From a virus: a stretch of 36,141 nt of DNA. The first letter of the stretch is position 1, and every line of letters starts with the position of its first letter. Below, piece by piece: positions 3,759 through 36,141 of the stretch. The stretch covers positions 119-36,259 of IMG/VR virus record IMGVR_UViG_3300000116_000073; one strand, given 5' to 3'. The notes beneath the pieces were generated by a model. It had not been told where the DNA came from and searched no databases. It was given only the letters and a program-made list of their open reading frames with translations. Made by a program: the position numbers and the translations under genes.

Positions 3759-3940
3759 AAAGATTTGTTGTGCCTGTAGAGGAAGATGAGAGTGGTGAGT
3801 GTTATTTCAATATACCAGAGGAGGTATTAGAGGACCTCGGATGGAATGTGGGGGATATTTTAGAGTATTCAGATGAAGGTGATGGTACACTATTGATAAC
3901 CAGAGCCGATATTAACAAACCAAAGCAGCAACCAGAGTAG
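3755..3940 (+). CDS. AbrB/SpoVT-like small DNA-binding-type protein (61 aa)
   Basis: The core reads CYFNIPEEVLEDLGWNVGDILEYSD, which follows the swapped-hairpin AbrB/MazE pattern: a strand, then IPxEvLexLGwxxGDxLe, then a second strand ending in LLITRA. Members are transition-state regulators or antitoxin DNA-binding domains that dimerise through this fold. In this phage it could repress or tune transcription or simply be a conserved small protein; no toxin gene is visible beside it. It overlaps the upstream stop (ATGA) and is the last of three coupled genes. The acidic N-terminus and Lys/Gln/Pro-rich tail are extra to the fold. Confidence 0.65.
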   Translation: MKRFVVPVEEDESGECYFNIPEEVLEDLGWNVGDILEYSDEGDGTLLITRADINKPKQQPE

Positions 3941-3957
3941 CGCGTTCACTGCATATT

Positions 3958-4308
3958 ATGTTTAATCCAGATCAATTTGACTACAACGATCCCGCTGAGG
4001 GCGAAGTCCCCGCATGGATGCAAGATAAAGAAGCATCTTTATGGGCAGATAATAAACTTGCACATGACACTATACTACAGATATTTGAAAAAATCCTCGG
4101 AAGAGTAGCAGCATTAGAGCAAGGTACTACAGCTGTAGGTGAACATGTCACTACTTTATATGATAGAGTGAATGCGATACCTGAGATCAATGGAGATTTG
4201 TTTAAGTATAAACCAAGAGGTAAGGAGTACCTTTCATTAGGTAGTAACTTTGATGAGATTTATAATCGTATAGAAAATATAGAAATGCATCAAGGGGGAT
4301 TCTGGTAA
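3958..4308 (+). CDS. hypothetical protein upstream of large virion gene (116 aa)
   Basis: This acidic 116-residue protein begins MFNPDQFDYNDPAEGEVPAWM. Its centre is a heptad-like helix (AHDTILQIFEKILGRVAALEQGTTAVGEHVTTLYDRVNAI, read in parts) that may form a coiled coil, and the C-terminus has another helix, NFDEIYNRIENIEMHQ. It ends directly before the ATG of the 997-aa structural-type gene (TAAATG), which suggests a structural or chaperone partner of that protein. No catalytic motif is seen. The ATG at 3958 lacks a clear ribosome site. Family not recognised. Confidence 0.65.
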   Translation: MFNPDQFDYNDPAEGEVPAWMQDKEASLWADNKLAHDTILQIFEKILGRVAALEQGTTAVGEHVTTLYDRVNAIPEINGDLFKYKPRGKEYLSLGSNFDEIYNRIENIEMHQGGFW

Positions 4309-7313: not shown

Positions 7314-7808
7314 ATGGGACTTCCCGCCGCTTTATACAGAGGAAACTGTTCTGGGCATGGTATACCCATTCCAGCACACATTCACAGTTATGAACCTTGT
7401 GGTACTACTTGTATCACAGCATCGGTGCAACCAGTACAAGTCAAAGATGCCACTTGTCTTTGGCCGCCAACAGTTCTTGCTCCTGCAGGACCTTACATCC
7501 GAACTGTGATCGTTAATGGTATCTTTCCAATATGCGATCAAGACATTCTAACTCCACACAAATCTCCTACTACTAACATTGTTATGGTTGGACCGTGTGG
7601 GCAAACTCCACCAATTCCAATGCCGTGTGTTTGTAGTTTGTTGGCGGCTGAGGATTCCAAAGGTATTGGACATCCAAGAAAGGTGACTGCACTGACAAAG
7701 ACTGTTTATGCTAATGGTCTGGCAATGGCAAAGGTAGCGGATCCATTAGGACCGCCATGCCTCTCTGTAATCGCTCAGGGAAGTCCAAATGTACTCGTAG
7801 GACCCTAA
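7314..7808 (+). CDS. PAAR-domain tail spike tip protein (gp5.4-like)
   Basis: The 164-residue protein ends with the hallmark PAAR pattern: VYANGLAMAKVADPLGPPC, then SVIAQGSPNVLVG. PAAR proteins fold into a sharp metal-stabilised cone at the tip of the central spike (gp5.4 on gp5 in T4) and help pierce the outer membrane. The N-terminus has GHGIPIPAHIHSYEPCG, rich in His and Cys, and a further His lies in KGIGHPRKV; such residues are candidate metal ligands. At 164 residues it is longer than the roughly 100-residue T4 protein, with extra Cys/Pro-rich strands (ICDQDILTPHKSP) in the middle. It sits between the 997-aa protein and gp25/gp6, in a baseplate context. Confidence 0.88.
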   Translation: MGLPAALYRGNCSGHGIPIPAHIHSYEPCGTTCITASVQPVQVKDATCLWPPTVLAPAGPYIRTVIVNGIFPICDQDILTPHKSPTTNIVMVGPCGQTPPIPMPCVCSLLAAEDSKGIGHPRKVTALTKTVYANGLAMAKVADPLGPPCLSVIAQGSPNVLVGP

Positions 7809-22700: not shown

Positions 22701-25700
22701 TTACTGGAAACACAGTAGTCGCAAATAGGGGTGCTGATGGTACAGCTGTAGTCGGACACCAAACTAACAGTAATGTTTTTGGTACTACTATTGAAGTTGG
22801 AAACAAAGTTGTACTGAGTAAAACTGCTGGCACGTATCAATCGTCTCCTGGCGTCTTTGATATTGTCATTGGTGATATTATCATTGGACAGCAAAGTGGA
22901 ATTGTTGCTGAGATCACTGGTATTCAGTCATATAGAGACCCTGTAACTGGAGCTGCAAATAATCAAGTTATTATCTCCGAAGGATCATCTTTCTTCGGTA
23001 TCGTATTCAATAGAATCACGAGTGTTGATTTCCAAAACGTTGTTCTGGATAATATTTCTCAAACTCAGTTGCAGTTGACTGACATTAATGATTCTGCAGT
23101 TGAATTTAATACAAAATTCCCAAATTCGGAAGTAGTAAGTAATTTGGTTCTTGAGTATGAAAATGCGACAAGCGACTTTACTATTGAAGAACAACTTAGA
23201 AATAATATTATAAACTACTCTAATCTTAACGGTGACCTGGTTGACGGTGAGACTGTAAGGGTTTATAAATTGGCATACAATCCAGCATATTATGCTCCTG
23301 ATGGATTGATACTTTCTGGTGATCGTATTCGTAGTGAGAATGCTACTGCTGAAGTCATTGGTACTAACTATGCTCGTGGGTATTTGTACTTAGGTAAGGT
23401 TGCTAGACGTGCAACTGATCTTCATGTACCAATTGCAGGAAATGGCGCGATTGTCTCTTCTCTTCAGAAGAAATTTGGAGCAGGTTCGTTGTACCTGAAT
23501 GGAACTGCTTACGTTGACATCCCTAGCAATAGTGATTTTGCATTCTCAACTAATGACTTTAGTATTGAGGCACAAATTTATGCTAGTGCATCTGCTTTAA
23601 CTGGAACTGCTACACTTTTGGACTTCCGTGCTGCTTCTGCCTCAGAAGTTGCAGTTAGACTATATTTGCAAAATGGTCAACTTCGGTATAATATTAACGG
23701 AAGTGATCTTCTTGCTGCAGGAACTATTGCTCAGGACACTTGGACTAGTATTGCGATTACCAGATCAAGTAACACTATCAAGATGTTTATTGATGGTGCT
23801 CAAGTAGCTAACGGTTCGGACTCCAATACCCATATAGCAAAACCAATTAAGATTGGTGCTGATTATGCAAATGCAAATGCGTTTGCTGGGTATATGGATG
23901 AAATCAGAATTTCTAGCACTGCAAGGTATACCACCACATACACTCCTGCAACTGGGATGTTCCAAGGAGATGCAAATACTGATCTTCTACTCCATTTTGA
24001 CGGAGACAACCTCTCTACTACTTTCTTAGATTGGTCTGGAGCACCTACATGGAATCAAGGTGATGAATTTGTCAATGGAGAAATTGATTTTAGATTCTAT
24101 GATGCTTCAAATGAAATTTTGAATAATCGCAATCTCATTACGAATGAAGCGATTTATCTTCTTGATAGACAGTATCCAGCCTTGCATATTCCTCTCTTAG
24201 CAACAGATATTGCAATCACTTATGGTGCAGAGTTCTATGATGTAATTATTTCAAACTTGGATCTTATTGCCAACGAAGCATATGAAGTAATCAATCCTTC
24301 TGTTCCATCTGGAACTACTGCTCAAGATTGTATTGATGATGTTAAAGATGTAATCAGAAATATCGCCTACAACCTTAAGTACGGTTTCAATAGTAAAGTT
24401 TGGGACGCTGCTGATCTTTATGTAAATGGTGGAGCAATTCAACACCTGACAGGTGTAACTGCTGCTTCTATTAGTGTATTCAATAAGGCAAGAGATATTG
24501 CTAAGGATATCATTAATAATACAACAGTTACTATTACAGGATCTCACGGTCTTACTCAAACAGAAAATACTAACATTCCATTCATCTACGAAGGTTATAC
24601 TGCTGCCGAGGACAGAATTACTGCTCTCACTAAAATTGTTACCGATACACTATCCGATCCAGGTGGATCTGATGCAGTAACATATCCAAGTTCTACCGCT
24701 ACTTTAGATAGAACTCATCCTTCCTATGCATATTGCCTGAGAGATGCTGGTCTTTGGGTTGACTCTATCGCCTATGACTTGAGAAATACTGGAAACAGTA
24801 AGTCATGGGATGCCGCGGCCAATTATGTTGATCGTACTGATCCTTCAAATGTAGTAATCAATCATGTTGCTGGTGAAGAGGGTGAGACAGTATGGGCAGT
24901 TGATAAGGTTCGCGACTTTGCAATCTCAGTAATGCGTGGCGATCTTCTTACTATTACTGGTGATCATGGTCTAACACAAGTTGTAGATGCAACTATCACT
25001 AGAGACTCGTCTTCTCCATACTGTGCCAACGTCGCTTCGGCAATCACGATTTATGCTGATATTATTTCAGATACTATTGAGCAGGCAAATCTTGCTAGTC
25101 CCGTAGATCATCTTGGTACTGTAACTCGGGTTGCTCCAACTAGTTTACATGGATCTGGAGTAGTTGACTCTGCTATTGTATCTGAATTTACTTGCGATAA
25201 AGAATTTGCAGATTCTGATCTGTTTGTATCAACTCAACTTTGGCCCGATTCTCAGAATAGATTTAAAGATGCTGCTACTTTGATCCGTGCTAACGCTGGA
25301 ACTATCGTTGATGAAACTGCAGGAGATATGCTAGCTCGCTATCCAGAACTCGCTTTGGATATGCCAAGAAATGCTAATGGTACTTCTACTCTAGGAACCC
25401 TAAGATGCAAAACTGACCTTACTCTGTTACTTAATTCTATCGCAGATGATATTGAATTTGGTGGATCAGGTAATACAGTAACTGCATTCAAGTTCTACTT
25501 AGGAGCAGAGGGTGAGATTCTATTCATCCGTCTACAACTCTTGCAGTCGCTTTACGCTCATGAACGCCTAGCATTCTATGCTAAGGCAGCAATTGACGGA
25601 ACTTTAGTCGCAAATTACTCCGATCGTGTTGTAATTCCTCCTGCAGGAATCACTAATGATCCTGGTGGATGTGCTGATGTTAAGTCTGCTATTGATACTT

Positions 25701-28700
25701 TGGCAGATCTGATTAATGAAACTCTTGCTCCTACGGGAGATAGGTTCCGTGATGCTGGAGATCTTTTGATCTTTAACCAGACTTATATTGCTGAAGAAGC
25801 AGTTGGTCTAATGCAAGAAGAGTTTAGTTATGTCAACTCTGGTGGTATCACAATTAAGACGTTTGACTATCCTGGTGGTGACATTGACGGAAAAGCAAAA
25901 TGTGTTCGTGATATGGAGGAAATTGTCAAGTCTATTGTTTCTGACTTGTTAGTTGGTGGCAACTATAGTACTGTTGAAGCAGCAAAACTATATCTTGATT
26001 CTAATAATAAGATTAATCACGTTGAAGATCAGATTGCACCTACTGTAGAGGCAATTGAGCGTGTAGGTTTCCTTTGTAAGAAGGCGGTAAACAACCTCCT
26101 ACAGAATACTGGTGATGGATCACTTGGATTTGAATTCTATGTTCCTAGATTTACATTAGAAAGTGCATATACTGATGGTACTATTACTGATAGCACCGAT
26201 GATGGAGATACGAACAACTATGGATCTAGAGACTGTACTAATGTAAGATCTGCTATTGATACTCTAATTTCTACAATTATTGAGATCCTTGCTCCTGGAA
26301 GTGAATCTGCTCGTTCTTCTAATCAGCAGGTTATGTTCGGTAGAGAATATATTGATACCGAACTTAGACAAATTGTTCTTGGAGATTGGGGTGATGTATG
26401 GAAAACTTCTACTGGACAATGGGTCACTGATAGAGCATACGTTGCAGGATCCATTATTAGTAGCGGTCCATATCTCTATCAAGCACAGAATACAGAAACC
26501 TCTGGTTCTATAGCACCTACACACTTGAGTGGAACTGTTATTGATGCTACTCCAGATGAAAGTGATGTAAATAACAATGCGAATCCTGTAGGTGTCAATT
26601 GGACATTCGTTGAATTTGGTAAGGATTATTGGTTGGATCAGTTTGTGCAGGATGCACTTTATGATAACATCACTACTCCAGATGTAGTTTCTGCTCCATA
26701 CGAGGTAGAAAATGCTACATACGATCCTACTAGTGGTGACCTTGTTATTACTAGTTCCGATCATGGTCTTACTACCAGTGATGGCATTTTCATCACACCA
26801 AATTCTCTGACATTTACATGCTCTTCTGATAACTACAATAGTTACAATAAGTATCCAAGACAAACTGATCCAGCATACAAAGAAAAACTTGCAATTACTG
26901 CAGTAACTACTGATACCATAACAGTAAACGTTGGAGCATCACCTACCGTCAATTACAATGTCGGAGCTGGCACAACATATGATGCTGGAAATGGTGTATT
27001 AGTACTCAATATCGGCAATCATGATTTGTTTGAGAACACTTCAATCCGACTTGCAGATAATTCTCTCACATTTACTTGTACCTCTGATGGTAATGTTTCT
27101 AACGAGACATATCCTCGTTCTGGATCCGATCCTTATGCAGGAACTACAATCAATATAGATGCTGTTGGTACTGATTCATTTGATATTGATGATGCTGTAT
27201 ATGTTCCTAGTACTGGAGTTCTTACACTCACTGTAGTTGGCAATTCCTTCGTTAATGGAGATAAGATCAGAATAGAAGATGAGTCTATCGTATTTACTTG
27301 TGGTTTAGATAATGATGTAACCGAGCATGCATATCCTCGTTCTTCGGATCCTTTCAGCTACAAGTGGTTGACGGTATCTAATGTTACTGATGATCAGTTT
27401 GATGTTAATGTTGGTGTTTCTTCAAATACTTCTGTCCATATCTTCAAATACGCCCTTGATAATGCTTTAGATCATCAAGACGGAACTATCACGCTAAATG
27501 TTGGAAATGCAGGATCTGCAGCAGGAGAAGCTCACACATTCATTAGTGCTACTGCTAATGCTGTAATTGCTGGTGGTAATTATACACATCAATTTATTTC
27601 AGCTACATCTGACGCCATTCAAGGTCCTGTTGCACAAAGCAAATTTAACAATACATCAACTATTGATAGTTTAATCTTTATAGATTCGCCTGTAGAAAAT
27701 GAAACTTCTGCAGTCAATATTTGGCCTGCTGGTGAAAGAGAAGAGTTTGGTGCTGGCGGTTGGACTGTAACTGGTGGTACTGTAGTTGCTGATCAGACTA
27801 TAGCTCCCGATAAGACTAATACTGCAGACAAGTATATTCCTGGAAATAATACTACTGCTAAGGTTATAGAAAGAACTTATTCTCTACCTTCATTTGATAC
27901 TTTTGATGATGATTCAATCACCTTTGACGACACTACTAATACTCTTGACGAAGGTGCTAACATCTCCTTCCAAACTTACACCTGGTCTTGTTTCGTTAAG
28001 CAAGATGAGTTCTTTAAGTTCCGTCATAGTATTGCCTGGAGTGCTACCGATAAGGCAGAATTTACTTGGGATGCTGTAACTGGTGCTGTTGGACCTTCAC
28101 TGTTTGTTAATGGTAACGTTATTGTTGGTGACAACATAACGAGTTCCACCAGTTTTGCTGACTCGGAAGCAAGGAAAGGTATTGATTGGGGTGTCAAACC
28201 TTATGGATTTGGTTGGTTCCGCCCATTCATCACTATCCAAGTTCCCTTTGGTATCTCTCAGTTAGATATCAAAGAATATATGTTGAACAACAGTGGTACT
28301 TTAGCTGGTACTGGTTCGGAGGGTGATGGTACTTCAGGTTCTTATATTTGGGGTGCTAAACTCAATAAAGGAGGTCTGGATATCTATACCTCTGTTAGTG
28401 GTGAAGGACTGTATGTCAGTGATGAATATAACATCAAGAAATTCATGATTGATAAGACAGAAGATTTGATTGAACTTCAACTCAATAATACTCAAGTCAA
28501 CCCTGCTTTGGAATCGGGAACCATTCCAAATTATGATCTTCAACTAACTGAAAATTATACTACTGCCTCCACGATGTTGAGATTCAGTAATACCTTTAAT
28601 CTCTATAGGGAGCAACTGAAAGACAGTGAATACTGGCTCACAGTACCTAAGATTTCTGGAATCACTGTTCCAAATCAAACATATGTTCAGGGTAACTCTA

Positions 28701-31162
28701 GAAATGTCCCAGTTTCTCTAACCAAAAAACTTGATAGTGCAGATTTCTTCTACGGACTATCATCTAACACTCAAGGTGAAATTGAGAAAATTACCTTTAA
28801 TGAGTCTACTGTCGCGGCCATTTATAAGAGATTTAAGTTTAATGCAGATCAAGTAAATCTTGGTACTGCTCTTGCAGACTTTGCTCTGGGTGAGACAGTT
28901 CAGACTACTGGAAATGCTGCAAATACGGGAACAATTTATTCTCTGTATGCAGATGAGAACTTCAGATACATGGATGTTGTTGTTACTGGAGGAACTTTCA
29001 GTCTCTATGATGGTTTGACTGGTGCAGCTGCAGGAACAAATCTTGAGGGTGGTACTGACTTAGTTGGTTCATTCATTAATTTGACTAACGCGGGTGCAGA
29101 TGTCAACAGAGTACAAGGTTCTTATACAGTATCTTCTATTGGTGGTAATGGAAGCGGCGCATCATTTACGGTTTCCGTTGATGATACTGGAGCAGCAAAC
29201 GTTATCATTGATGCTGGTGGTACTAGTTACCAAGTCGGAGATGTGCTAACACTCCAAGATGTCAGTATGGGTAATGGTGGAGGTAATAATATTACTTTAG
29301 AAGTTGATACTTTAACTAACGCGGGTATTCAAGTTTCTACTGATAGACTTCAGGTTATTGATTTGGTCAATGGTATTGGATTTACTGCTGGATATCCATT
29401 CAAAGGATATACTTCAGGATCTAAAGCAGATACCTTAAACTATATCAGTAACAGAGGTGCTGTTACCAACAATACTGGAGGAAGACTAACTCTTGACACT
29501 GAGTCTCTTGAAGGTACTTTTGAAGATACCTCAGTAATTTATCCAGATCAGACGAGAATATTCTTGGACTTGATTGTTCATCCTGGTATTCCAACTGGCA
29601 TTGATGTTGGTGATAACATTGTTGCTACTGGATATACTAGGTTGGGTATTTCCTTGGCTGGTAGTTTTGCATCTTCAGATTTCGTTGTTGGTGATCTTGT
29701 ATATCAAGCAAACTCAAATCTATCTCAAATCTTCCAAGGTGCATATGGATATGTTACTGGATGGGATGATGCTAACAACTACCTATATGTCTCTCCGATT
29801 GGCACTTCTGTCTTCCAGAATGGTCAAAACGTAGCGCAGTATCCGTTAGGCAATACTCAGACTCCTAGAATCTTCGGGCAAGTTTCCACGACTGTTAATC
29901 AGACTACTGTAGCGTATGGAACAATCACTCGTATTGATCAAATTGGTCTAAGTAGACGTGTATATCTCGCAGATGTTGTTGGCACCTTTAGTGGCAATGA
30001 TACGGTGGTCTCTGACGCTGGATATATAGCAGCAGCATATGAGAAGATTGATATTCAAGGTAGAACTAGCAGATACTTTGTAGGATTTGATGGTACGCAA
30101 ACATCATTCAAACTGACTGAGAATAATGGTACTCCATACTTCCCAGATGCCGAAGGTCATATGATGATCTTTGTCAATGGTATCCTACAACCTCCTGGTG
30201 CTGCTGGATCTTATACCGCATTCTCTGATACTATCTTGTTCAATGAAGCACCTACGCTGGGTTCTTCCTTCACTGGATTCTATCTTGGTAAAATGCGTCA
30301 ACTGGATGATATTAGCTTTGAGTTTGACTCCTTGCGTTCGTCCTTTAACCTCAAGCGGGATGGAACTTTCTACTCGCTCGCGCTTACGGAAGGTGTTCAG
30401 GAGACTGAATCTATTATCGCAGATAATAATATTATTATCTCTCTCAATGGTGTTATTCAGGAACCTGATGTTGGTTTTGAATTAGTCGGTTCTCGTGTCA
30501 TTTTCAAAGAGATTCCTCGTGTAGGATCCACATTTGTTGGATTTGCTTACATTGGTTCTGATGCAGACGTTACAAGATCCGAGGTTGTACCTCCAATTGA
30601 ATCTGGAGACTTACTGCAAATTCAAGGTGAAAATGTAGATAGAGAGGTCGCAGTTATTGAATCTGCAAATACTCTAGTAACATTTGAATATATCGGATCC
30701 GTGTTTGGTCGTGACGCTCAAGGTACTGCTAACATTCTCAAGGGAAGAGTTAACGGAGTTCAGGTAACTAATCCTGGTTCTGGATATACTGCTCGCCCAA
30801 CAGTTCGGATTGATTCATCTTCTGGTTTTGATGCAGAGATTAAAGCTCTGGTGGGTGTCTCTCGTGTAGACACTACCAATCCTGGTTCTGGTTATGGATA
30901 TCCTGAAATTGATGTTCTCACATCAGTTCCCGATGACTGGACAAGTCCAGATATTACACTATATGGAGAGGAACCATTCTTCTCACAGGAAATTATTGAT
31001 CCTGAGATTCAGCAGATCGCACCAGAAGATCTTAGCAATATCAATAGTGGAGACATCGCAGGTCAAGGTCCATCCGACCCCACCCAAACTCCTACTACAC
31101 TAACTGATTTTGCAACTACAGGAACGTCAAATACATCCAACGTTTGGGTGAGTGGATCATAA
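10712..31162 (+). CDS. giant modular virion protein (6816 aa), in gp7 position
   Basis: One open frame of 6816 codons directly follows gp6, where T4 has wedge gene 7 (1032 aa). The N-terminus (LPDFIKSDFPAFEKFLEYYY) and residues 703-734 (RTFYASKGTQRSIQYLF, LYGEDVSV) look like the conserved wedge-attachment part of marine phage baseplate proteins. Then come modules: glycine-tyrosine beta repeats (294-630, 1134-1357, 1907-1970, 3134-3367, near the end), a YHYH-like domain (about 1370-1553; FDGNPIYGPYG), a seven-blade propeller-like region (1985-2365), LamG-like domains (2367-2610, 4243-4430), Cys-starting helical repeats (4463-5237), three SxxFTC repeats (5327-5577) and LNGVIQEP-type fibre repeats at the C-terminus. 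A baseplate-anchored adhesion fibre is the likely role; gp7 homology is inferred. Confidence 0.85.
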   Translation: MTTNPNKVSQNILNQLPDFIKSDFPAFEKFLEYYYKSQEKTGQPQNILNELKSYLDIDSYDFGLIQSKTSLLEDVSATSDIITVESVDNFLQDNGSLLINDEIVYYERADKSPEISLTDGVSYQEFREKWIELQSPYLNFNGVQRSFPLRSENNPVSAPSPDHVVVRLFGKYQVPNVDFIISGTDIIFTDPPRSPNPSDSVEQTGIFYLKGFLQDAIQVLDDVSSQFNSAKKEFLIQTNGVKYNPVLDVYLNIIIGDKLLVPFVDFTIVSDGINNILKLTSAPTPDQGIYIASIEAPISSFGSGASAVAQIATNGELSGIRVKSGGSNYRIQYPPAVNIVTTVGGGGAAAYSLVNGIKTLPLLSGGAGYSDLNPPIVDIEVPTAAGGIRAKATAIVENGTVTSVTLDDSGSNFTFTPRITFKDPGGCVLTYPTVDVNGSLNSDSIQITSGGVGYTVPPSVYVDAPTGSDPVQAEINVTIADGTVTGYTITNRGRGYTASPRVAVIDPGAAQILDVSVDSTGRVIDIELLSGGSGYVDIPSIYIVDNRKDASGAYIGGVGATAVASIFNGQITDLNITNFGTGYDPANPPRVVIQRPPSANASAEVGFGEVTGFRVVENGSEYTKAQFVGCSRGVSAIVGYDSDGNVIYEDNTVPAAHSALTTEVECLDGVFIEKMLTKFTEQYLPDIPKIDLKKININTVIKNIRTFYASKGTQRSIQYLFKILYGEDVSVTYPKEQIIKPSAASWQVDTILRCIIVDGSSANLRDGFLQQFQDQVDPNIGLASALIENFISIKTSELEIYELVLSEETIKGSFTIPYKTKLAEAISTTDSVITVDSTIGWPERNGEILIGTELIRYKEKSLNQFIECTRSVNNIVEDWDAATEVTSNFYAYVNYGLPTQVTVNVVGIIKAENTTLTDDGTYYLPGDKLTVSKLGASETTPLLNTWNYNVKKLVSVDRIEFGGVNNRTATVYCNNPHGLLVGDQVTIYGANPILFNGTYFVQSRESTTVFKYELVQPAATVPQGNILISVDLNRGKSDIESINNVISIYTTNIQNAFFNDNYVYIAASGIPNYKIGPFAGQALIPGNQRKLLRFPRRSQTISTKDTIKPGPIGSWVNGVSIWSYKSDLKKIFGKLTAINITSQGDSYDAASPPALTISGGDGDDAAGVVVINGSITSIDVDNTGTNYAEPPLVSIVGGGGSGASATAVVTNSVVSRILITDGGTGYISKPEITIVGGGGSGATATASVRGPISAVNLTNTGTGYTSEPTVTLSSGSGAQAQAIVQNGRIISIAVINAGFGYTTPPEVEIYGNGFGAIARANIDTDGENAGRVTSISISNRGINYESGTTVIILRSVGSNAEFQATVQDWNYNLAFNTTLDNAQGSVFSGFNNQYGGEYAHFTNPKRLRFVLGDNLLEDSNGNLTEATANITHSPIIGWAFDGNPIYGPYGYGDPTNQSSNVRRLEPSYQLRSELVLDAQTNPNPIRTGGPLLSGDAAGTFVEDYEYTFGEGDLDRYNGRFGKTPEFPDGVYSYFICIDATAEGNSVYPYIIGPQFNSSVDSWNLLASATQQNIPVGVIRYRDPYENVDIDVERQPNATADLLTTEDGLELTFEPIWEDADGDNVIDTNYQTDDDGNPITPLVRLATRNDDRVFRLTFDQNTITMAVGQTYTIPAYVTTDSQYAASTGILNFQVLQNGITNSTVLGRIVSVEKFIPAFDKTYDQYIGLDFTYTDSDGVSQGSANITDIEFVGFRATTELEDNVTEELNDVGSLLEENKLELFDYFPKVRFDSKVDIEVETITKFEDAKVNAFVVENPGDSYQVDDRLVFDDTETGGYGISATIKTIQGKDVSSYTTELIDDVPHGVVQTDGPHELSVGDRVEMLYDPNISNENRQYKVKVVNGVERIVVTQTGTGYNDDVPITVEIDGDGQHADIKPIINVSNGTVSTFNIEKSGNGFTENPRLIISHPQEFKKSEYFINGTQNLNNTVINSTYTSDITKEIYVCGNSLDEFNNRVGFVAKYSPSGDIIWQKTARSEQPSGADTFCDFKAITVDETSLSLDVYVTGTTKPNALNVNYNPDIVLMKFNQNSSGSSVNIQFQKELAGISGSTRLDEVQAICKVGENKWAIGGHTNTNSSNPFDAFLIIFNENLGIQQKRKVATASDSEKVRDIVYNPDNNKFYVLLEIAPDTTSAVKSAAIVTCEATQFALVIDGVQNFTTTSYNLWDARFDLDEFGDFLIAGTSYSGSNPIGVFVGKVTPAGTVTWGKRITPLGTFRNLQVIGGNVDVFGNYNIAINYEINESTSTSEAFRKQSEVVKFKYDGSVVKCNKISLDRNIVGFEVNDISSDSSGDPIVVGQGYRNEVVALFDFEATTETEPVDTTGNITNRNIIGDYYTGSNIASGAPTGVGSTRALRIDAHDGSAWSDTHFVINPENNTGIYGYADTFNPNNNWTIEGWFGVTETTVLQDSRLGGLGSTHHTLLAIGDGNTPGLALQLDRSNKALKLFVSATTTRTASPITTVGGIIANDAGYVHIAVTKNGNLFTIYADGTSVGSGSLPALTIPSTAKIYLGNVPNWTGAASGFTIESAGSFDVDGLRITDRVRTISVPSVSSEYNEYYKTYHYTEDTSIILKTDKNIDLSRQGTFVGTNSNFHFTTASYTYPSTINQPVTSAAVTLASEGLQVLDYNDVNSSLVLDSVTLTSVADVWSSRTATVPALGGKKVKATTTTFGKFYIKVTNTVQADNVLRLTLNQTYNLNVGSVLTQINSAGQTLGLGTIIDITDSGIFIAQYGNESTWQGFAGSGEITSSGLESNTIASSIFPNVPFTTTQGTFIFDIPVGTDARFKTYAQEDFSIRIDNTAPAGSPYIIGSVITPTEDQVTYNADRSQLTISGLTAVTEVTLVTNLDKILQITAVNNTDRVFVKTEKAHRLNLGDNLFITGNSDAQFNGSFSVSQLISSREYAITLRSIATAALSTASSIEIFTKHPVLQLFYNHKYQFMMGDPSLEGYFFSFSKDNLFKLEYSFNSIQRVGTPGIQAGSDPEPYVQLSVANDVTNISYYFDPSRVGDTSPVDQGTYLDVVTSPYKGNFVLNRLDGATITTGATIFKFPLLNETESTATASRTTYATYSKAAAGPIGEIRLISGGGFYTKLPVVSDIISNRKIERVEITEPGTEYAVGEYTGVSISGDGEGGKVNITVEDGTDDEGGVIPGQISRIVVTDPGKAYTTAFIDIESIAGILGSSLAGSGADLKVVIPPNGNGASVFVKADEIGKIKKLKNNNFGFDYTHDYTLRPEITFPVNVQLTSTSILDSITVTDPGSGYATPPAVEIAGGGGNGATAEATIRNGRIDQIEVKDPGAGYSSQPTVSLKSQFNYVVNLDLNLLQFSFPHGITNGAAVTVNVNDDGSGVDPALPISSFGRLNTATTYYAISGIGNSLEDDQLRLSLTADNAAIGDFISFTNAGDGRQQLLTDSFGGAASANVITGRFLAGEYVYQGETQEQATAFGYVSNNDGWQEGPRILKIVDYTGTFTSQERLTGTISKASGTIDNLSIARGVLEVGAITSTPGRFIDDIGKPSEIIQKIQDSYFYQDFSYSVQAPVPISDWREILTTNVHPGGFKVFGELGLVESGTIENKTTSFELTKSVNLAESAIVPNLQNFTLVEPVYTDFDNTEVRFRQKNLTSSEQILTSTVQKINDISQLFDGERISFPLEVENRDGDGNPVTEPVIAAANQLIITLNGIVQSPEEAFTVQGSNVVFASPPQPPANVQYATATLGFKTIYRMDLTNISGIFPLIGGSIRGVVSDINATVVAVGTTTIDFYYEYSGDAFTIGENIFSGATGFSGDLATITDITPQNLFQFKEEIENLRNDTATIEEVNLEGNNGIVLSTIPNGLSATGTTFDVADGYKLSDVSIASVGSGYSDDIDGIATTGGSGTGLTIEVDANGDGTVASVKIKNFGSGYNIGEVVTLAAGNNDATLTIVADVGGVYQIDSERFSVVSITGNTVVANRGADGTAVVGHQTNSNVFGTTIEVGNKVVLSKTAGTYQSSPGVFDIVIGDIIIGQQSGIVAEITGIQSYRDPVTGAANNQVIISEGSSFFGIVFNRITSVDFQNVVLDNISQTQLQLTDINDSAVEFNTKFPNSEVVSNLVLEYENATSDFTIEEQLRNNIINYSNLNGDLVDGETVRVYKLAYNPAYYAPDGLILSGDRIRSENATAEVIGTNYARGYLYLGKVARRATDLHVPIAGNGAIVSSLQKKFGAGSLYLNGTAYVDIPSNSDFAFSTNDFSIEAQIYASASALTGTATLLDFRAASASEVAVRLYLQNGQLRYNINGSDLLAAGTIAQDTWTSIAITRSSNTIKMFIDGAQVANGSDSNTHIAKPIKIGADYANANAFAGYMDEIRISSTARYTTTYTPATGMFQGDANTDLLLHFDGDNLSTTFLDWSGAPTWNQGDEFVNGEIDFRFYDASNEILNNRNLITNEAIYLLDRQYPALHIPLLATDIAITYGAEFYDVIISNLDLIANEAYEVINPSVPSGTTAQDCIDDVKDVIRNIAYNLKYGFNSKVWDAADLYVNGGAIQHLTGVTAASISVFNKARDIAKDIINNTTVTITGSHGLTQTENTNIPFIYEGYTAAEDRITALTKIVTDTLSDPGGSDAVTYPSSTATLDRTHPSYAYCLRDAGLWVDSIAYDLRNTGNSKSWDAAANYVDRTDPSNVVINHVAGEEGETVWAVDKVRDFAISVMRGDLLTITGDHGLTQVVDATITRDSSSPYCANVASAITIYADIISDTIEQANLASPVDHLGTVTRVAPTSLHGSGVVDSAIVSEFTCDKEFADSDLFVSTQLWPDSQNRFKDAATLIRANAGTIVDETAGDMLARYPELALDMPRNANGTSTLGTLRCKTDLTLLLNSIADDIEFGGSGNTVTAFKFYLGAEGEILFIRLQLLQSLYAHERLAFYAKAAIDGTLVANYSDRVVIPPAGITNDPGGCADVKSAIDTLADLINETLAPTGDRFRDAGDLLIFNQTYIAEEAVGLMQEEFSYVNSGGITIKTFDYPGGDIDGKAKCVRDMEEIVKSIVSDLLVGGNYSTVEAAKLYLDSNNKINHVEDQIAPTVEAIERVGFLCKKAVNNLLQNTGDGSLGFEFYVPRFTLESAYTDGTITDSTDDGDTNNYGSRDCTNVRSAIDTLISTIIEILAPGSESARSSNQQVMFGREYIDTELRQIVLGDWGDVWKTSTGQWVTDRAYVAGSIISSGPYLYQAQNTETSGSIAPTHLSGTVIDATPDESDVNNNANPVGVNWTFVEFGKDYWLDQFVQDALYDNITTPDVVSAPYEVENATYDPTSGDLVITSSDHGLTTSDGIFITPNSLTFTCSSDNYNSYNKYPRQTDPAYKEKLAITAVTTDTITVNVGASPTVNYNVGAGTTYDAGNGVLVLNIGNHDLFENTSIRLADNSLTFTCTSDGNVSNETYPRSGSDPYAGTTINIDAVGTDSFDIDDAVYVPSTGVLTLTVVGNSFVNGDKIRIEDESIVFTCGLDNDVTEHAYPRSSDPFSYKWLTVSNVTDDQFDVNVGVSSNTSVHIFKYALDNALDHQDGTITLNVGNAGSAAGEAHTFISATANAVIAGGNYTHQFISATSDAIQGPVAQSKFNNTSTIDSLIFIDSPVENETSAVNIWPAGEREEFGAGGWTVTGGTVVADQTIAPDKTNTADKYIPGNNTTAKVIERTYSLPSFDTFDDDSITFDDTTNTLDEGANISFQTYTWSCFVKQDEFFKFRHSIAWSATDKAEFTWDAVTGAVGPSLFVNGNVIVGDNITSSTSFADSEARKGIDWGVKPYGFGWFRPFITIQVPFGISQLDIKEYMLNNSGTLAGTGSEGDGTSGSYIWGAKLNKGGLDIYTSVSGEGLYVSDEYNIKKFMIDKTEDLIELQLNNTQVNPALESGTIPNYDLQLTENYTTASTMLRFSNTFNLYREQLKDSEYWLTVPKISGITVPNQTYVQGNSRNVPVSLTKKLDSADFFYGLSSNTQGEIEKITFNESTVAAIYKRFKFNADQVNLGTALADFALGETVQTTGNAANTGTIYSLYADENFRYMDVVVTGGTFSLYDGLTGAAAGTNLEGGTDLVGSFINLTNAGADVNRVQGSYTVSSIGGNGSGASFTVSVDDTGAANVIIDAGGTSYQVGDVLTLQDVSMGNGGGNNITLEVDTLTNAGIQVSTDRLQVIDLVNGIGFTAGYPFKGYTSGSKADTLNYISNRGAVTNNTGGRLTLDTESLEGTFEDTSVIYPDQTRIFLDLIVHPGIPTGIDVGDNIVATGYTRLGISLAGSFASSDFVVGDLVYQANSNLSQIFQGAYGYVTGWDDANNYLYVSPIGTSVFQNGQNVAQYPLGNTQTPRIFGQVSTTVNQTTVAYGTITRIDQIGLSRRVYLADVVGTFSGNDTVVSDAGYIAAAYEKIDIQGRTSRYFVGFDGTQTSFKLTENNGTPYFPDAEGHMMIFVNGILQPPGAAGSYTAFSDTILFNEAPTLGSSFTGFYLGKMRQLDDISFEFDSLRSSFNLKRDGTFYSLALTEGVQETESIIADNNIIISLNGVIQEPDVGFELVGSRVIFKEIPRVGSTFVGFAYIGSDADVTRSEVVPPIESGDLLQIQGENVDREVAVIESANTLVTFEYIGSVFGRDAQGTANILKGRVNGVQVTNPGSGYTARPTVRIDSSSGFDAEIKALVGVSRVDTTNPGSGYGYPEIDVLTSVPDDWTSPDITLYGEEPFFSQEIIDPEIQQIAPEDLSNINSGDIAGQGPSDPTQTPTTLTDFATTGTSNTSNVWVSGS
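11590..12600 (+). repeat. glycine-tyrosine beta repeats, N-terminal block of giant gene
   Basis: The encoded protein repeats a roughly 30-50 residue unit of the form GGxGYxxPPxVxI, Gly/Ala-rich spacer, then xGxVTxVxxxxxG (residues about 294-630). Further blocks lie at about 14110-14780, 16430-16620 and 20110-20810. The same unit occurs in the genes at 4309 and 34164. Confidence 0.7.
16660..17800 (+). other. propeller-like region of the giant protein
   Basis: Residues about 1985-2365 contain some seven units, each with a beta hairpin such as EIYVCGNS, DVYVTGTT, KWAIGGHT, FLIAGTSY or PIVVGQGY, followed by a strand ending in FVAKYSPSGDIIW or VGKVTPAGTVTW. This matches the SBBP/Kelch-like beta-propeller pattern in which each blade reports value and context strands. 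A seven-bladed propeller is the best reading; the exact blade count needs structure prediction. Confidence 0.6.
17800..18540 (+). other. LamG/concanavalin-like module 1 in the giant protein
   Basis: Residues about 2364-2610 show the LamG-type jelly roll signature: NNWTIEGWF, a long strand series, AGYVHIAVTKNGNLFTIYADG (VxVTrxGxxxxlYvDG type), then AKIYLGNVP and DVDGLRITDRVR. Such modules bind glycans or proteins and are common in phage fibres. Confidence 0.7.
23440..24000 (+). other. LamG/concanavalin-like module 2 in the giant protein
   Basis: Residues about 4243-4430 repeat the pattern: GSLYLNGTAYVDIPSNSDF, NDFSIEAQIY, TWTSIAITRSSNTIKMFIDG, IKIGADYANANAFAGYMDE and IRISSTARYT. This is the classic domain order of concanavalin-like lectin modules with a closing D-E-(V/I)-R-I strand. 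It is clearly separate from module 1 and less compositionally simple. Confidence 0.75.
24100..26420 (+). repeat. Cys-starting helical repeats in the giant protein
   Basis: Within residues about 4463-5237 two alternating helical units recur. One has CIDDVKDVIRNIAYNL, CLRDAGLWVDSIAYDL, CKTDLTLLLNSIADDI or CVRDMEEIVKSIVSDL, followed by a small loop and AAxLYL-type helix. The other has CADVKSAIDTLADLI or CTNVRSAIDTLISTI. Four of the first and about three of the second are seen, each opening with Cys. This is an all-alpha island inside an otherwise beta protein. Confidence 0.65.
26740..27440 (+). repeat. three SLTFTC repeats in the giant protein
   Basis: Three copies of a roughly 95-residue unit carry NSLTFTCSSDNYNS, NSLTFTCTSDGNVS and ESIVFTCGLDNDVT, each followed by a YPR/DP turn and a strand pair. 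Each unit places its Cys at the same spot. Confidence 0.7.
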
Positions 31163-31184: not shown

Positions 31185-32948
31185 ATGCCGCAATCAAATA
31201 CCACAGCAGTATTAGACAACGGGGTGCTGACAGTTACTACTGATCAGCTCCCTGAACCTGCTTTGTATGGGACCCCACTTGGATCTGGAAATTTTCCAAA
31301 TAATCCAAATACTGTAGATAGTCAAGATGGATTATATGCATTTACTATTAGGGCAGGAACTAATACTGAAAATCCTCAAGCAACTACTCTAGGTGCTCAA
31401 GGTGTAGCATTAAATGGGGTAGTTTTATTTAATCCTTCTGCTGGTCCTGGTCCGTTGCCTGGACAGACAGTTTTTCCTGCTGCTGGGTTTAATTGGAATG
31501 CCGTATTTAATGAGAGTGTATATGGTGTTGATGCGTGTGGCGGACATGCAGAGCAAAATGGTGAGTATCACTATCGCTCTGGCAGTTTTCTTGTGAATTG
31601 TTGGGGCAATGATTTAATACAATCTAATGTATATTATAGTGCCACTCAACATAAAGGTAATTTCTTTAGGCATCCAGACGGACACTCAAAAATTGTAGGA
31701 TTTTGTTTTGATGGATATCCAATTTATGGTCCTTTTGGATATGATAGTGTTGAGGATAGAACGAGTGGAACAAAAAAATTAAAGTCATCTTTCAGAATTT
31801 TAACAACACCTGCAGATGGAAGGCAATATAGTTATCAGCAGTATACTGCAGGAAGTTTTGTTCAAGACTATGAATATGTAAATGGTTTTGGAGACTTGGA
31901 TGAACATAATGGTAGATTTTGCCAAACTCCAGAATATCCAAATGGAACGTATGCATATTTTCTTTCACTAGACGAAAATAATCTTCCAGTCTACCCATAT
32001 ATTTTTGGACCTACAACTAAAGAACAGAGAACTTGGCCAGAGGAAGGCGTTGATAGTCCAACAGGAGGTCCTGTAGCACCTCTTAGTAATACTGATATTC
32101 TCAGAATTACCAAAACTTGGTCCGAAGCAACTAATTTTAATTATGATTCTGTAGTTAGTCTGCCTGCAGACCCCTCTGAAGGTGAACCCCCACTGCCCTC
32201 ACAATTGCCTGTAACCATCTTGTTACATGGTAGTGGTGGTAATGGTAGTAATACTGTAAATAGATGGAGGAGCGTTCTTCCTGGAGATATTTTAGTAGCA
32301 CCTACTGGGTATAGTAATGCATGGAATATTGTTGATGAGAGTAAAGCACCTGATATAGATTTTCTAATTCAGTTGATTAGAAATCTTAGGCAATATAGTA
32401 ACGTTGCTGGTGATAAATTCCGAATTCTTGGTGTATCTAATGGTGCGGCTTTAGCACTTAGGGCATTCTTAGAATTAAATGATGCTGGTGTAACTACAGT
32501 AGTTTCTGTAGTATCCGCTCTTCACATTAATCAATGGGACAATTTTGTTTGGTATAGACCCCCAACCAACGAATCTACTGGATCTGCAAATGAGCGGTAT
32601 GGTTATACTCTACCAATAACTCCTCCAACTGGTAGAAATATTATGACTATTGCAAATACCAATGATGGGGTTATTCCTTATAATGGTGGATTGGGAGGTG
32701 TTGCTGGTACTACGTTCTTTGATTCGCAATTTGGTGCATATCTTCTTGCCACATCTCAAGGTTATACTGGAGATCAACTAGGAGATCCTCAAGGTGTACA
32801 GTATTCATCTTACTCCAACATATATCTCTACAAATACCTTAATAATTCTGTAGTTCATGTTAAGAGTAATACTGGTCACGACATTGATGCTGGTCATGAA
32901 GCTCTAATTCGGCAGTATATTGAAAGCGACGGAAACTCTGCTGGTTAA
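31185..32948 (+). CDS. YHYH domain fused to alpha/beta hydrolase (esterase/depolymerase-like)
   Basis: The protein has 587 residues. Residues about 40-285 form a YHYH-type domain: HAEQNGEYHYRSGSF (H129), then GFCFDGYPIYGPFG (172-185) and a C-terminal NGRFCQTPEYPNGTYAYF. Residues about 325-587 form an alpha/beta hydrolase of the LpqC/PHB-depolymerase type: oxyanion loop LLHGSGGNGS (346-355), nucleophile elbow GVSNG with Ser418, acid Asp494 in NTNDGVIPY and His565 in NTGHDID. All three catalytic residues are present in the right order, so activity on an ester is plausible: polymer, capsule O-acetyl groups or lipid. The setting between virion genes suggests a tail-borne enzyme acting on the host surface; this is inference. 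Confidence 0.82.
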   Translation: MPQSNTTAVLDNGVLTVTTDQLPEPALYGTPLGSGNFPNNPNTVDSQDGLYAFTIRAGTNTENPQATTLGAQGVALNGVVLFNPSAGPGPLPGQTVFPAAGFNWNAVFNESVYGVDACGGHAEQNGEYHYRSGSFLVNCWGNDLIQSNVYYSATQHKGNFFRHPDGHSKIVGFCFDGYPIYGPFGYDSVEDRTSGTKKLKSSFRILTTPADGRQYSYQQYTAGSFVQDYEYVNGFGDLDEHNGRFCQTPEYPNGTYAYFLSLDENNLPVYPYIFGPTTKEQRTWPEEGVDSPTGGPVAPLSNTDILRITKTWSEATNFNYDSVVSLPADPSEGEPPLPSQLPVTILLHGSGGNGSNTVNRWRSVLPGDILVAPTGYSNAWNIVDESKAPDIDFLIQLIRNLRQYSNVAGDKFRILGVSNGAALALRAFLELNDAGVTTVVSVVSALHINQWDNFVWYRPPTNESTGSANERYGYTLPITPPTGRNIMTIANTNDGVIPYNGGLGGVAGTTFFDSQFGAYLLATSQGYTGDQLGDPQGVQYSSYSNIYLYKYLNNSVVHVKSNTGHDIDAGHEALIRQYIESDGNSAG

Positions 32949-32978: not shown

Positions 32979-34157
32979 ATGGCAAAAGAAATTCTACAAC
33001 TTGGTAATTCTGCCAACGACGGAACGGGAGATTCCCTCCGAGCGGGTGGCACTAAAGTTAATGCAAACTTTACCGAGCTGTACGATTCTCTCGGGGGAAC
33101 TGCAGGTGCCACTGCATCTTTGATTAGTACAGCATCTCCAAATCTAAGTGATGCATTGACATGGAACGGCACTTCATTTTCTCCTGGTATTCCCAAGAAT
33201 AAAGGCATTCTTGAGCAAAACTTGAATGTTAATGGATATAATATTGTATCCTCTTCAAATGGTAATGTTCTGATTCAATCAGATGGTACTGGAGATATTG
33301 TACTTAGAAATACTTCAAATAGTACTGATACTATTATTGATGGCACTGATGGATTCTTAAAATGGAGAGCACCTTATGCATCTGCGGCAAATCTACCAGT
33401 ATCTAGTAACTACGATGGAATGTTTGCTTATGTCGCTGATGTAAGTAAAGCATACTATTCTAACGGAACTGCTTGGATTAATTTAATTGATACTTCTACT
33501 GGTAGGATTCAAGACCTATCAAACGTTGCAGATACATCATATACCGATGGTGAGGTTCCTACTTGGAATGCTGTTAATGGACAATTTGAACCTGGAACTG
33601 GTGGTTCTTCTGGTGGTGGTAACATCTTTGCAACGTTCAACGCGGATGCAGGATCTACCACTGCGTTGGGTGCCACAGACACACTGACAGTAACTGGTGG
33701 TACAGATATTACTACTACAATTAGTGGTGATACTCTGACCATTAACTATTCTGGTGGTGGGGGTTTCCAATTTACTGGCACACCTTCGGAAGGTGACACT
33801 CTCTTTTATGATGGAAACAATTGGGTTCCTGTTACTTCTCCTATAGTTGCATGGGACTTGGGTGCTAATGGATCTTCCCACTACACTTTCACTGGAGCGG
33901 GATTTACTGGTGCGATTAATGACCCTGCCTTGTATCTTCATAGAGGGCAGACTTATTTGTTTAATAATTCTAATAGTTATACTGTCCATCCGTTTGAAAT
34001 TCGTCAATCTAATGGTGGTTCTGCATATACTGCTGGAATCACAAATGATGGTGCTGGAAGAACAACATTCGTAGTTCCTATGGATGCTCCTTCTACGCTT
34101 TATTATCAGTGTACCGTTCATGGTGCAATGGGAAATCAGATCGTAATCGTATCGTAA
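32979..34157 (+). CDS. tail fibre/baseplate protein with gp9/gp10-like N-terminus and cupredoxin-like C-terminus
   Basis: The 392-residue protein opens with LGNSANDGTGDSLRAGGTKV then NANFTELYDSLG, the attachment motif shared by T4 gp9, gp10 and fibritin (GN..DDGTGDxLRxGGxKxNxNFxELY). Residues 60-290 are beta-rich fibre-type sequence with Gly/Thr/Ser repeats. The last 97 residues resemble a small blue-copper (cupredoxin) fold: His337 (VHPFEI), then Cys378, His381 and Met384 in YYQCTVHGAMG. The C-x2-H-x2-M spacing is that of amicyanin. Whether copper is bound is untested. The N-terminus argues that this is a baseplate-attached virion protein, so the domain would be displayed on the particle. 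Confidence 0.75.
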   Translation: MAKEILQLGNSANDGTGDSLRAGGTKVNANFTELYDSLGGTAGATASLISTASPNLSDALTWNGTSFSPGIPKNKGILEQNLNVNGYNIVSSSNGNVLIQSDGTGDIVLRNTSNSTDTIIDGTDGFLKWRAPYASAANLPVSSNYDGMFAYVADVSKAYYSNGTAWINLIDTSTGRIQDLSNVADTSYTDGEVPTWNAVNGQFEPGTGGSSGGGNIFATFNADAGSTTALGATDTLTVTGGTDITTTISGDTLTINYSGGGGFQFTGTPSEGDTLFYDGNNWVPVTSPIVAWDLGANGSSHYTFTGAGFTGAINDPALYLHRGQTYLFNNSNSYTVHPFEIRQSNGGSAYTAGITNDGAGRTTFVVPMDAPSTLYYQCTVHGAMGNQIVIVS

Positions 34158-34163
34158 TACTAA

Positions 34164-36141
34164 ATGGCAAGATCAGTACCAGGTAGCGGCGCAATTATTG
34201 AACCACTCTTTAATAAAGAGTTTGGTGTATCAAGTGTCATTGTCCTAAAAGGGGGGTCTGGATATTCAGCAACCGATCCACCAAAACTAGAAGTTGATAA
34301 TTGTGGAACACCCGAAATAGATGCATTATTGTATCCTATTATTGAGAGTGGTAGACTTACTCATGTAAGAGTATTAACTCCTGGTAAGGGTTATGATCCT
34401 TTGCGTGTGGTTATTTCTGCCCAACAGGATGATAATCAAAGAGTATCTTCATTTGATATCCGAAGCATTCTAACGAGTGTATCAGTATCAATTACATCTG
34501 GAGCATTTTCTGGAGATCATTTAAGTTTAGTATCAAATAATCTTCCAGATCCTGCAGTTACTGGTGATTTTCCGAGTACGTTTAATAATAATAGCATTTA
34601 TTCTCAAGATTACAGTCATGAGATTGTATATCGTGGTGGTAAAGATATCCCCACTCTCAATAATCCAGAAAGAAGATCAGAACAACTTGGATTACTTTCT
34701 AATGGAACACCATTATACTCACCAGATGCAGGTGTAAATGGAATTCCACCTGTAGGATTTAAATTTAACGCAGTTCATACTAATATTTTTGACCATGATG
34801 TTTATCATGGTTATCCAGATAATGATAACAATTACTTTTTCCAAGACTCAAAATTAATTAATTCGTTTTCTAGTACAAACGGATTATTTTCAGTCAAGAG
34901 TTATTATTCAGTTACTAATTTTGGTGGAGATAAATCTCGTCATGATAATGGACACAGTAAAATATTGGGTGTTAGTTATGATGGATATCCAATCTATGGT
35001 CCATATGGGTTCTCGGAATCTCTTAATGATCAATCCGCAATAAAAAGAATTGAATCTAGTTATAGGTTTAAAACTGGTGTTGAAATTGATGGCAATCGTG
35101 CAGCGATTAATGTACCTGCCGCAGTTACTTACACTATCACTGTTGCTAATGTAGGTGGTTCAAATAGATATATTCTCAATGGTGGTGGTTTTACTGATGA
35201 AACCGCTCCAGTATTACTTTTAAATCGTGGCGATACTGTAACATTTAATCAAGATGATGCTACTAATGATACACATCCTTTACTGTTAAGTGATGTTTTA
35301 GGTGATGTAAATGGTCAAGCATGGCATGCCGCTGGACAAACTCTTTACGATCCAGATATACTTTATAGTAGAGGAGTTACTTACAGGTTAGATGGATCTA
35401 CAGTAACATATGATCAATATATTGCTGGATTTGCATCTGCAACTACAAGAAGTATTGAGATTGTAGTACCTGATATTTCACCAAGTAATTTTTCTTACTT
35501 CTGTAGATATCACGCTTTGATGGGAAGTAAGACTAATAATCTTGGTTTTACTGCAGGAACTTTTATTGAAGACTATATCTATGAAAATTCCTATGGTGAT
35601 CTTGATGGTCATAATGGAAGATATACAGTTACTCCAGAATATCCCAATGGAACATATGCATACTTCCTAACTATTGATGCTAGTTTAGAACCACAATTCC
35701 CATATTGTATTGGAGAATCATACTATAGTGAAGTGATCAGGTATGGAGAATCTGCGCCAACCGCATCTCAAGAAGTTCCGACAGGTGCTAGAGCAGAAGT
35801 TATCCTCAGTGAGGAGAATCCTGGAGAAGTACAATATGTAAAAATGATCGCTGGTGGCGATGGATACTTTGGTACTGCAAGAACAGATATTCTCGGAGGA
35901 GAAGGAACGGGTGCATCTGCAGTTCCAGTAACTCAATCTATCAGTGGATTATCACTATCAAATCCTGGTAGATCTTATATCAATCCACCCTCACTATTTT
36001 TCCAAGGTGGTGGTGGACAAGGTGCTGAAGGTGTTGCTAATATTGATCTTTCTGGTATTATTACTGATATTGCAGTAGCAGATGGTGGTAGATTTTATCA
36101 AGAACCACCGTTTGTTCTTATTAGTGGCGGCGGCGGTGTTG
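34164..36141 (+). CDS. YHYH/cupredoxin/glycine-repeat virion protein, 3' end outside window
   Basis: ATG 34164 opens a frame of at least 659 codons with no stop before the window end. The N-terminus has a glycine-tyrosine repeat (GGSGYSATDPPKLEV and TPGKGYDPLRVVI). Residues about 170-310 resemble a YHYH domain, with GVSYDGYPIYGPYGF (around 270-285). Residues about 325-460 resemble a cupredoxin: His371 (THPLLL), then Cys447, His450, Met453 in FCRYHALMG, again C-x2-H-x2-M. EYPNGTYAYFLTID, the usual end of the YHYH module, follows after the cupredoxin, so the latter seems inserted in the YHYH domain. Further glycine repeats run into the window end. A fibre or tip virion protein is likely. Confidence 0.72.
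   Translation, partial: MARSVPGSGAIIEPLFNKEFGVSSVIVLKGGSGYSATDPPKLEVDNCGTPEIDALLYPIIESGRLTHVRVLTPGKGYDPLRVVISAQQDDNQRVSSFDIRSILTSVSVSITSGAFSGDHLSLVSNNLPDPAVTGDFPSTFNNNSIYSQDYSHEIVYRGGKDIPTLNNPERRSEQLGLLSNGTPLYSPDAGVNGIPPVGFKFNAVHTNIFDHDVYHGYPDNDNNYFFQDSKLINSFSSTNGLFSVKSYYSVTNFGGDKSRHDNGHSKILGVSYDGYPIYGPYGFSESLNDQSAIKRIESSYRFKTGVEIDGNRAAINVPAAVTYTITVANVGGSNRYILNGGGFTDETAPVLLLNRGDTVTFNQDDATNDTHPLLLSDVLGDVNGQAWHAAGQTLYDPDILYSRGVTYRLDGSTVTYDQYIAGFASATTRSIEIVVPDISPSNFSYFCRYHALMGSKTNNLGFTAGTFIEDYIYENSYGDLDGHNGRYTVTPEYPNGTYAYFLTIDASLEPQFPYCIGESYYSEVIRYGESAPTASQEVPTGARAEVILSEENPGEVQYVKMIAGGDGYFGTARTDILGGEGTGASAVPVTQSISGLSLSNPGRSYINPPSLFFQGGGGQGAEGVANIDLSGIITDIAVADGGRFYQEPPFVLISGGGGV

Follow-up and report, generated by a model that had tools for sequence, protein, structure and literature searches.

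A YHYH domain and an alpha/beta hydrolase with a Ser-Asp-His triad are fused in one protein of this virus, as the original prediction had it, and the analysis confirms the fusion, with motifs and residues exactly where they had been placed. The window, which is the whole 36,141 nt stretch of DNA that was analysed, comes from a virus record of 36,259 bases, and its genes include a baseplate cluster of the T4-like cyanophage type. The hydrolase belongs to the alpha/beta hydrolase superfamily, near the CE1-type esterases. We propose that the target protein is a late, baseplate-displayed CE1-like esterase that would deacylate host surface glycans on adsorption. Taken as a whole chain, this proposal has about an even chance of being right; in its parts, the hydrolase is very probably an active esterase-type enzyme, the protein is probably present in the virion, and the case for a host glycan ester as the substrate is evenly balanced.

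Domain architecture and gene neighborhood

Over its full length (residues 1-587 of 587 aligned, 1113 bits), the target protein is a member of PHROG 2576. The cyanophage proteins of this family from S-SSM4, ACG-2014d, S-RIM14 and S-ShM2 are full-length orthologues with no difference in build, at 79-81% identity to the target in S-SSM4 and ACG-2014d and 50% in S-ShM2, and gene order is kept in the records opened. They are annotated as 'hypothetical protein' and, in S-ShM2, as 'gp7 baseplate wedge initiator'; the latter label was rejected, since the baseplate-wedge PHROGs 2885 and 708 have their best-matching stretches within the YHYH part (residues 163-284). Moreover, the C-terminal half matches 65 of 50,697 phage records, all of them named Synechococcus phage or Cyanophage. 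The suggestion that such a protein would be a new type for a cyanophage does not survive, because the full-length family already exists as PHROG 2576 and the hydrolase occurs in these 65 isolate records. No description of the target hydrolase was found in the CC-licensed PMC literature, and publication elsewhere is possible.

The cluster runs in the order gp25 (8191), gp6 (8612), gp7-slot protein, target gene, gp9/10 connector and a further YHYH protein (Table 1). The predicted location in a tail gene cluster holds, and 'baseplate cluster' is a more exact wording than the predicted place beside fibre genes, since the target gene lies between the 6816-aa gp7-slot protein and the gp9/10 connector. 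The single 6816-aa reading frame occupies more than half of the window. Before gp25, a PAAR-type protein (7314-7808; PHROG 281 at 7e-30, Pfam PAAR below cut-off) is a candidate spike tip, and the insert that parts the two YHYH stretches of the last protein in the window has, by eye, a plastocyanin-type look.

Table 1. Positions of the target gene, its parts and its neighbors in the window
Feature	Position	Strand	Basis
6816-aa protein, gp7 slot, with internal YHYH stretch (about 14810-15376)	10712..31162	+	ORF; match to target protein
Late-promoter motif CATAAATA, matching cyanophage NATAAATA, 20 nt before target start codon	31158..31165	+	
YHYH + CE1-like alpha/beta hydrolase gene (target), 587 aa	31185..32948	+	ORF; PHROG 2576
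YHYH domain PF14240, residues 59-265	31359..31979	+	Pfam 137.1 bits (gathering cut-off 25)
Low-confidence linker, about residues 285-304	32037..32096	+	pLDDT
Alpha/beta hydrolase domain, about residues 305-587	32097..32945	+	pLDDT blocks; AoAXEB fold match
H348, HGSGG oxyanion-type loop (HGSGGNGS from residue 348)	32226..32228	+	Invariant 143/143; after strand 341-347
S418, predicted nucleophile in GVSNG (starts at 416)	32436..32438	+	Invariant 143/143; between strand 407-417 and helix 419-430
D494, predicted acid in NTNDGVIPY	32664..32666	+	Invariant 143/143; after strand 485-491
H565, predicted base in TGHD	32877..32879	+	Invariant 143/143; between strand 556-561 and helix 569-580
Late-promoter motif AATAAATA, 19 nt before gp9 start codon	32953..32960	+	
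gp9/gp10-type baseplate wedge tail fibre connector	32979..34157	+	PF07880 28.9 bits; phrog_677 E 1e-145
Next baseplate protein, T4-GC 399 type, YHYH in two stretches	34164..36141, continues past window end	+	Orthologues

Modelled alone (33 rows; window 31185-32054), the YHYH half reaches a pLDDT of 87.6 and a pTM of 0.88. Against the PDB, its model finds a best Foldseek E of 1.1 and none of 416 aligned chains at Z 2, a want of matches that does not establish a new fold. Its matches among predicted viral structures include the YHYH protein of S-RIM14 as well as Mimiviridae and Megaviridae proteins. Where three other aligned proteins of the YHYH class have the motif YHYH itself, the window protein has YHYR. 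Around the linker to the hydrolase, the two models fall below a pLDDT of 50 at residues 268-297 and 281-290, respectively.

Both the target gene and gp9 are preceded by a late-promoter motif; NATAAATA has been published as the motif of S-PM2 late promoters (PMC2984593). ATAAATA occurs 3 times in the window against 13.8 expected by chance, and two of the three precede the target and gp9. Further, the exact motif stands before gp9 in all 18 loci that carry the YHYH-hydrolase fusion and in all 9 examined loci that lack the hydrolase; before the fusion gene itself it stands in 4 of 18, and the other 14 have CTAAATA, with one mismatch. Across five comparisons, dN/dS was 0.08-0.12 in the YHYH half and 0.15-0.24 in the hydrolase half, values that are rough because dS is at least 1 in four of the five and several are near saturation. 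On these codon comparisons, the hydrolase half is under purifying selection, that is, in constrained evolution.

Catalytic residues, fold and family of the hydrolase

The hydrolase was checked by conservation because its family matches are only weak. Relatives were gathered from viral contigs (two scans), from genomes (one scan) and from four annotated phages, giving 144 loci besides the window; the alignment holds 143 of the resulting 145 sequences, leaving out the frameshifted L056 and the partial L145. S418, D494 and H565 are invariant throughout, and in total 11 of the 287 columns are so, which gives a probability of 4e-5 that three random columns would all be among the 11. The patterns used to fetch the relatives (alignment A2) did not include S418 or H565, and included H348 and D494 in part. 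Conservation confirms that the predicted triad is real and more than chance. Some relatives (ACG-2014d) have HD in place of HG in the oxyanion loop, which weakens the esterase reading.

The AlphaFold2 model of the hydrolase, built on a 93-row alignment, has pLDDT in blocks of 76-97 over residues 301-587, mostly above 85. In the canonical alpha/beta hydrolase order, the Ser follows a strand and precedes a helix, and the Asp and His follow strands. The predicted model agrees with superfamily membership, with Ser, Asp and His in order and the Ser of the GxSxG motif at a strand-helix turn, and the triad order read from the letters is borne out, each residue occupying its right topological place. 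An SGNH-type tail esterase, where the catalytic Ser lies in a GDS(L) block near the N-terminus of the domain, was considered and rejected, the Ser here being in GVSNG at 418, about 110 residues into the domain.

Fold comparison of the predicted hydrolase gave Z of at least 8 for all 1000 aligned chains. Acetyl xylan esterase B from Aspergillus oryzae (AoAXEB, 9j07; Z 24.7, rmsd 3.1, 252 residues aligned) matches best, and the next are feruloyl esterase 8jh8 (Z 21.3) and the PHB depolymerases 8daj (20.6) and 9byu (20.5), with acetyl xylan esterase 5x6s at Z 20.4. AoAXEB also heads the profile search (6.3e-7), where its Ser and Asp motifs align with those of the phage hydrolase; it is reached by profiles only, the best phmmer match of the single sequence against the PDB being 0.13. 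The nearest solved relative by profile and fold is taken to be of CE1 type, a label that follows the title of PDB entry 5cxx. In the structure comparison with LpqC and feruloyl esterases that had been suggested, the fold adjoins acetyl xylan and feruloyl esterases; LpqC (3d0k) is also among the matches, at Foldseek rank 33 (E 6e-6), and is not within the best 50 of the 1000 aligned chains.

No Pfam family passes on the C-terminal half, the best being PF02230 with 13.4 bits against a cut-off of 23. NF050058 (PHA depolymerase, extracellular type 1) is matched by the whole protein at E 5.6e-6 (26.0 bits) and by the C-terminal half at E 9.4e-7 (28.6 bits); filing as a PHA depolymerase was rejected because the curated cut-off of 150 bits is missed. 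The glycan-deacylase reading is weakened at this point, since the family matches point to PHA depolymerase no less than to carbohydrate esterase, and the profile cut-off is missed. Indeed, the matches to NF050058 (92 of 93 hydrolase members at E <= 0.001) and to 8daj and 9byu would also suit an active virion lipase, lactonase or PHA-depolymerase-type enzyme that acts on outer-membrane lipid or another polymer during entry. This alternative is unlikely, if by no means negligible: acetyl xylan esterase is best by both profile and fold, 4 Z units above the PHB depolymerases, and the window protein has 26 bits against the 150 of NF050058.

Carriers of the hydrolase and the slot before gp9

Viral contigs yielded 89 relatives, of which 80 were kept. 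Sorted by sequence signatures, 85 phage loci fall into four classes and one remaining fragment (L042) outside them. The YHYH-hydrolase class has 18 loci and one fragment (L018). The gp7-slot class has 26 loci with a C-terminal hydrolase; both carriers scanned match phrog_17744 (baseplate wedge), and the five fragments of the class that were looked up fall into its tree group. The subtilase-hydrolase-plastocyanin class has 14 loci (Pfam was run on two), and the 1160-aa tail-cluster class, where the hydrolase is N-terminal, has 25. L003 (4120-7158) and L013 (10267-13188) encode proteins of about 1000 aa with a subtilase (S8), the hydrolase and a plastocyanin-type part, the last below cut-off in L013; they have two catalytic domains per protein and adjoin tail fibre genes.

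The next gene was tested with an HMM of gp9 N-termini at loci with at least 250 nt downstream. It is gp9 in all 41 testable loci of the YHYH-hydrolase (17/17) and gp7-slot (24/24) classes, and gp9 also lies directly after L018 and L042; however, it is the next gene in none of 14 subtilase-plastocyanin and none of 22 1160-aa loci, which weakens the reading as a baseplate esterase. For 23 of the 25 loci in the 1160-aa class, a separate YHYH gene match ends 47-54 nt upstream; in the frameshifted L056 it ends 326 nt upstream of the called start, and L062 is truncated. A cluster of this class (L031) also has genes of gp9 type, S8 type and gp9/10 N-terminal type. The other 824 aa of the 1160-aa carrier found no counterpart in the phage collection, and the matches of the gp7-slot carrier, at about 30%, are to T4-like phages with hosts such as Sinorhizobium, Caulobacter and Methylophilales. 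Overall, the carrier classes and their gp9 or tail-gene neighbors indicate that the hydrolase stays with baseplate or tail proteins despite the change of carrier.

The slot between the gp7-slot gene and gp9 varies as well. In all six other cyanomyoviruses examined (S-SSM5, P-SSM4, Syn9, S-RIM2, S-RIM8 and ACG-2014b), the slot is empty and gp9 follows the gp7-slot gene after a gap of 23-34 nt. In L163 and L164, the slot holds a stand-alone 284-aa YHYH protein, about 65% identical to the YHYH half of the window protein (residues 1-284), and the gp9 after it is 70% identical to the window gp9. Further, P-RSM6 has a YHYH protein with an Ig-like C-terminus (Ig_3 below cut-off), and L183, L186 and L193 have one of 578-580 aa, whose C-terminal part in L183 and L193 matches the C-terminal module of the window gp9. 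This polymorphism points to the hydrolase as an optional C-terminal add-on to a YHYH protein of the baseplate slot. In S-ShM2, the annotation divides gp9 (L011:13755-14997) into two genes of 133 and 314 aa that overlap, where related contigs have a single frame of 413 aa; the split is a frameshift or sequencing error.

The genome scan gave 59 loci, mainly in Bacteroidota and Planctomycetota and also in Neomarinimicrobiota, Verrucomicrobiota and a few distant others, with no cyanobacterium-named record among the 59. In a quick tree of 108 rows, 52 bacterial rows lie to one side of a fully supported branch; constraining the 52 phage rows together (without L120 and L042) gave a higher likelihood and was not rejected (p-AU 0.81). 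The phage hydrolases may be a single lineage, in that one clade is not rejected and one origin is unproven. Read by eye, the bacterial relatives mostly have signal-peptide-like N-termini, and many have sorting or dockerin-like tails, which suggests exported enzymes; this secreted look counts for the esterase reading. Bacterial flanks were covered by scanning 55 of 83 listed ORFs from 15 chosen loci, and the 25 commonest of 85 families included no carbohydrate-active or polysaccharide-degradation family except dockerin (4 members). With no polysaccharide-degradation theme in the scanned flanks, inferring the substrate from bacterial neighbors is disfavored.

PF14240 occurs in 39 of 55 hydrolase-holding bacterial genomes (1/4, 24/30 and 14/21), a count that leaves out the genomes of L145-L148; for comparison, it occurs in 113 of 295 sampled from a single class and in none of 14 controls. 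Hydrolase and YHYH lie within 5 kb of each other only in L093 among the 59 loci. No conclusion is drawn from this co-occurrence, because relatedness is uncorrected, the carriers span several phyla and a single locus is linked. On that Neomarinimicrobiota contig (L093:3443-9189), the hydrolase (4842-5885) is followed, after about 2 kb, by the only YHYH match of that genome (7891-9189), and just upstream lies what by eye is a second esterase-like gene (3443-4774).

The presence of one hydrolase lineage on four carriers, the adjacency of gp9 and the slot polymorphism favor a baseplate or tail protein. A late enzyme that acts inside the cell, or a metabolic gene that just happens to lie in the baseplate operon, would fit the want of a carrier virion proteome and of proof that the window protein itself is assembled into particles. 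No virion proteome of a hydrolase-carrying phage was found in the CC-licensed PMC literature, and S-SM1, S-PM2 and Syn9, which do have proteomes, are not among the 65 hydrolase records, so that this counts against the reading as a virion esterase. Indirect evidence comes from the S-SM1 proteome (PMC3037559), with 41 detected virion proteins, T4-GC969 included; in S-SSM5, the gp7-slot protein bears the label T4-GC969. An intracellular role is nevertheless improbable, given the four different carriers (two directly before gp9, the others among tail genes where examined), the fusion to a YHYH domain that also occurs inside neighboring proteins, and the late-promoter motif before the target gene. 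A hydrolase fold used for binding only, as a lectin-like receptor-binding module with dispensable catalysis, would suit a slot that does not need catalysis, as the Ig-like tail of P-RSM6 and the gp9-type module of L183 indicate, but is very improbable, since a pure binder would be expected to lose a triad that is invariant in 143 of 143 sequences, where only 11 of 287 columns are.

Proposed role and known systems

The esterase reading is favored by the invariant triad, the fold and profile match to AoAXEB, purifying selection and the late-promoter motif. In the mechanism that we propose, the target gene would be expressed late and its product built into the baseplate beside the gp9 connector, the YHYH half serving as the baseplate module that would keep the protein in place and the C-terminal half being displayed outward as a CE1-like serine esterase of acetyl xylan/feruloyl type. 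On adsorption, the esterase would strip host surface glycans of acyl or other ester groups, and the removal of these groups would loosen or unmask the layer beneath the baseplate. Tentatively, and with more doubt than belief, these results can be joined in a wider reading: marine T4-like phages would share a mobile esterase cassette, one CE1-like lineage repeatedly grafted onto baseplate or tail proteins near gp9 and YHYH, across hosts; glycan deacylation would be a recurrent, swappable step of entry in the ocean, with YHYH as an adapter that has no solved relative, and the YHYH-esterase pairing may predate phage use.

To our knowledge, it is poorly understood how cyanophages pass the polysaccharide at the surface of marine Synechococcus and Prochlorococcus, and most huge cyanophage baseplate proteins are without assigned function. 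The present analysis gives a testable enzyme with named catalytic residues and natural presence/absence pairs in one gene slot, and isolated phages for such tests exist (ACG-2014d, S-SSM4, S-ShM2 and S-RIM14). It would assign a role to PHROG 2576, a family of unknown function, and a structural model to the YHYH domain. The relatives on several tail proteins of other ocean viruses suggest that the trimming of acyl groups on host surface sugars may be part of their entry.

Among characterized enzymes, AoAXEB (9j07/9j08) and the CE1-type feruloyl and acetyl xylan esterases share the fold of the predicted hydrolase over 252 residues, with aligned Ser and Asp motifs, although AoAXEB is fungal and 18% identical to the phage hydrolase. 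LpqC (3d0k) and the PHB depolymerases (8daj, 9byu; NF050058) share the superfamily and match more weakly than acetyl xylan esterase. The Vi-phage acetyl esterase is reportedly a phage tail esterase acting on host polysaccharide; it and G7C gp63.1 are tailspikes with other esterase folds (SGNH for gp63.1). The target differs in being a predicted GxSxG alpha/beta hydrolase in a baseplate slot. The job proposed for it is that of G7C gp63.1, described in PMC13082707 as a tail esterase that edits host surface polysaccharide. By analogy, the target protein may act like such polysaccharide-editing tail esterases, by a different fold and on a different part of the tail.
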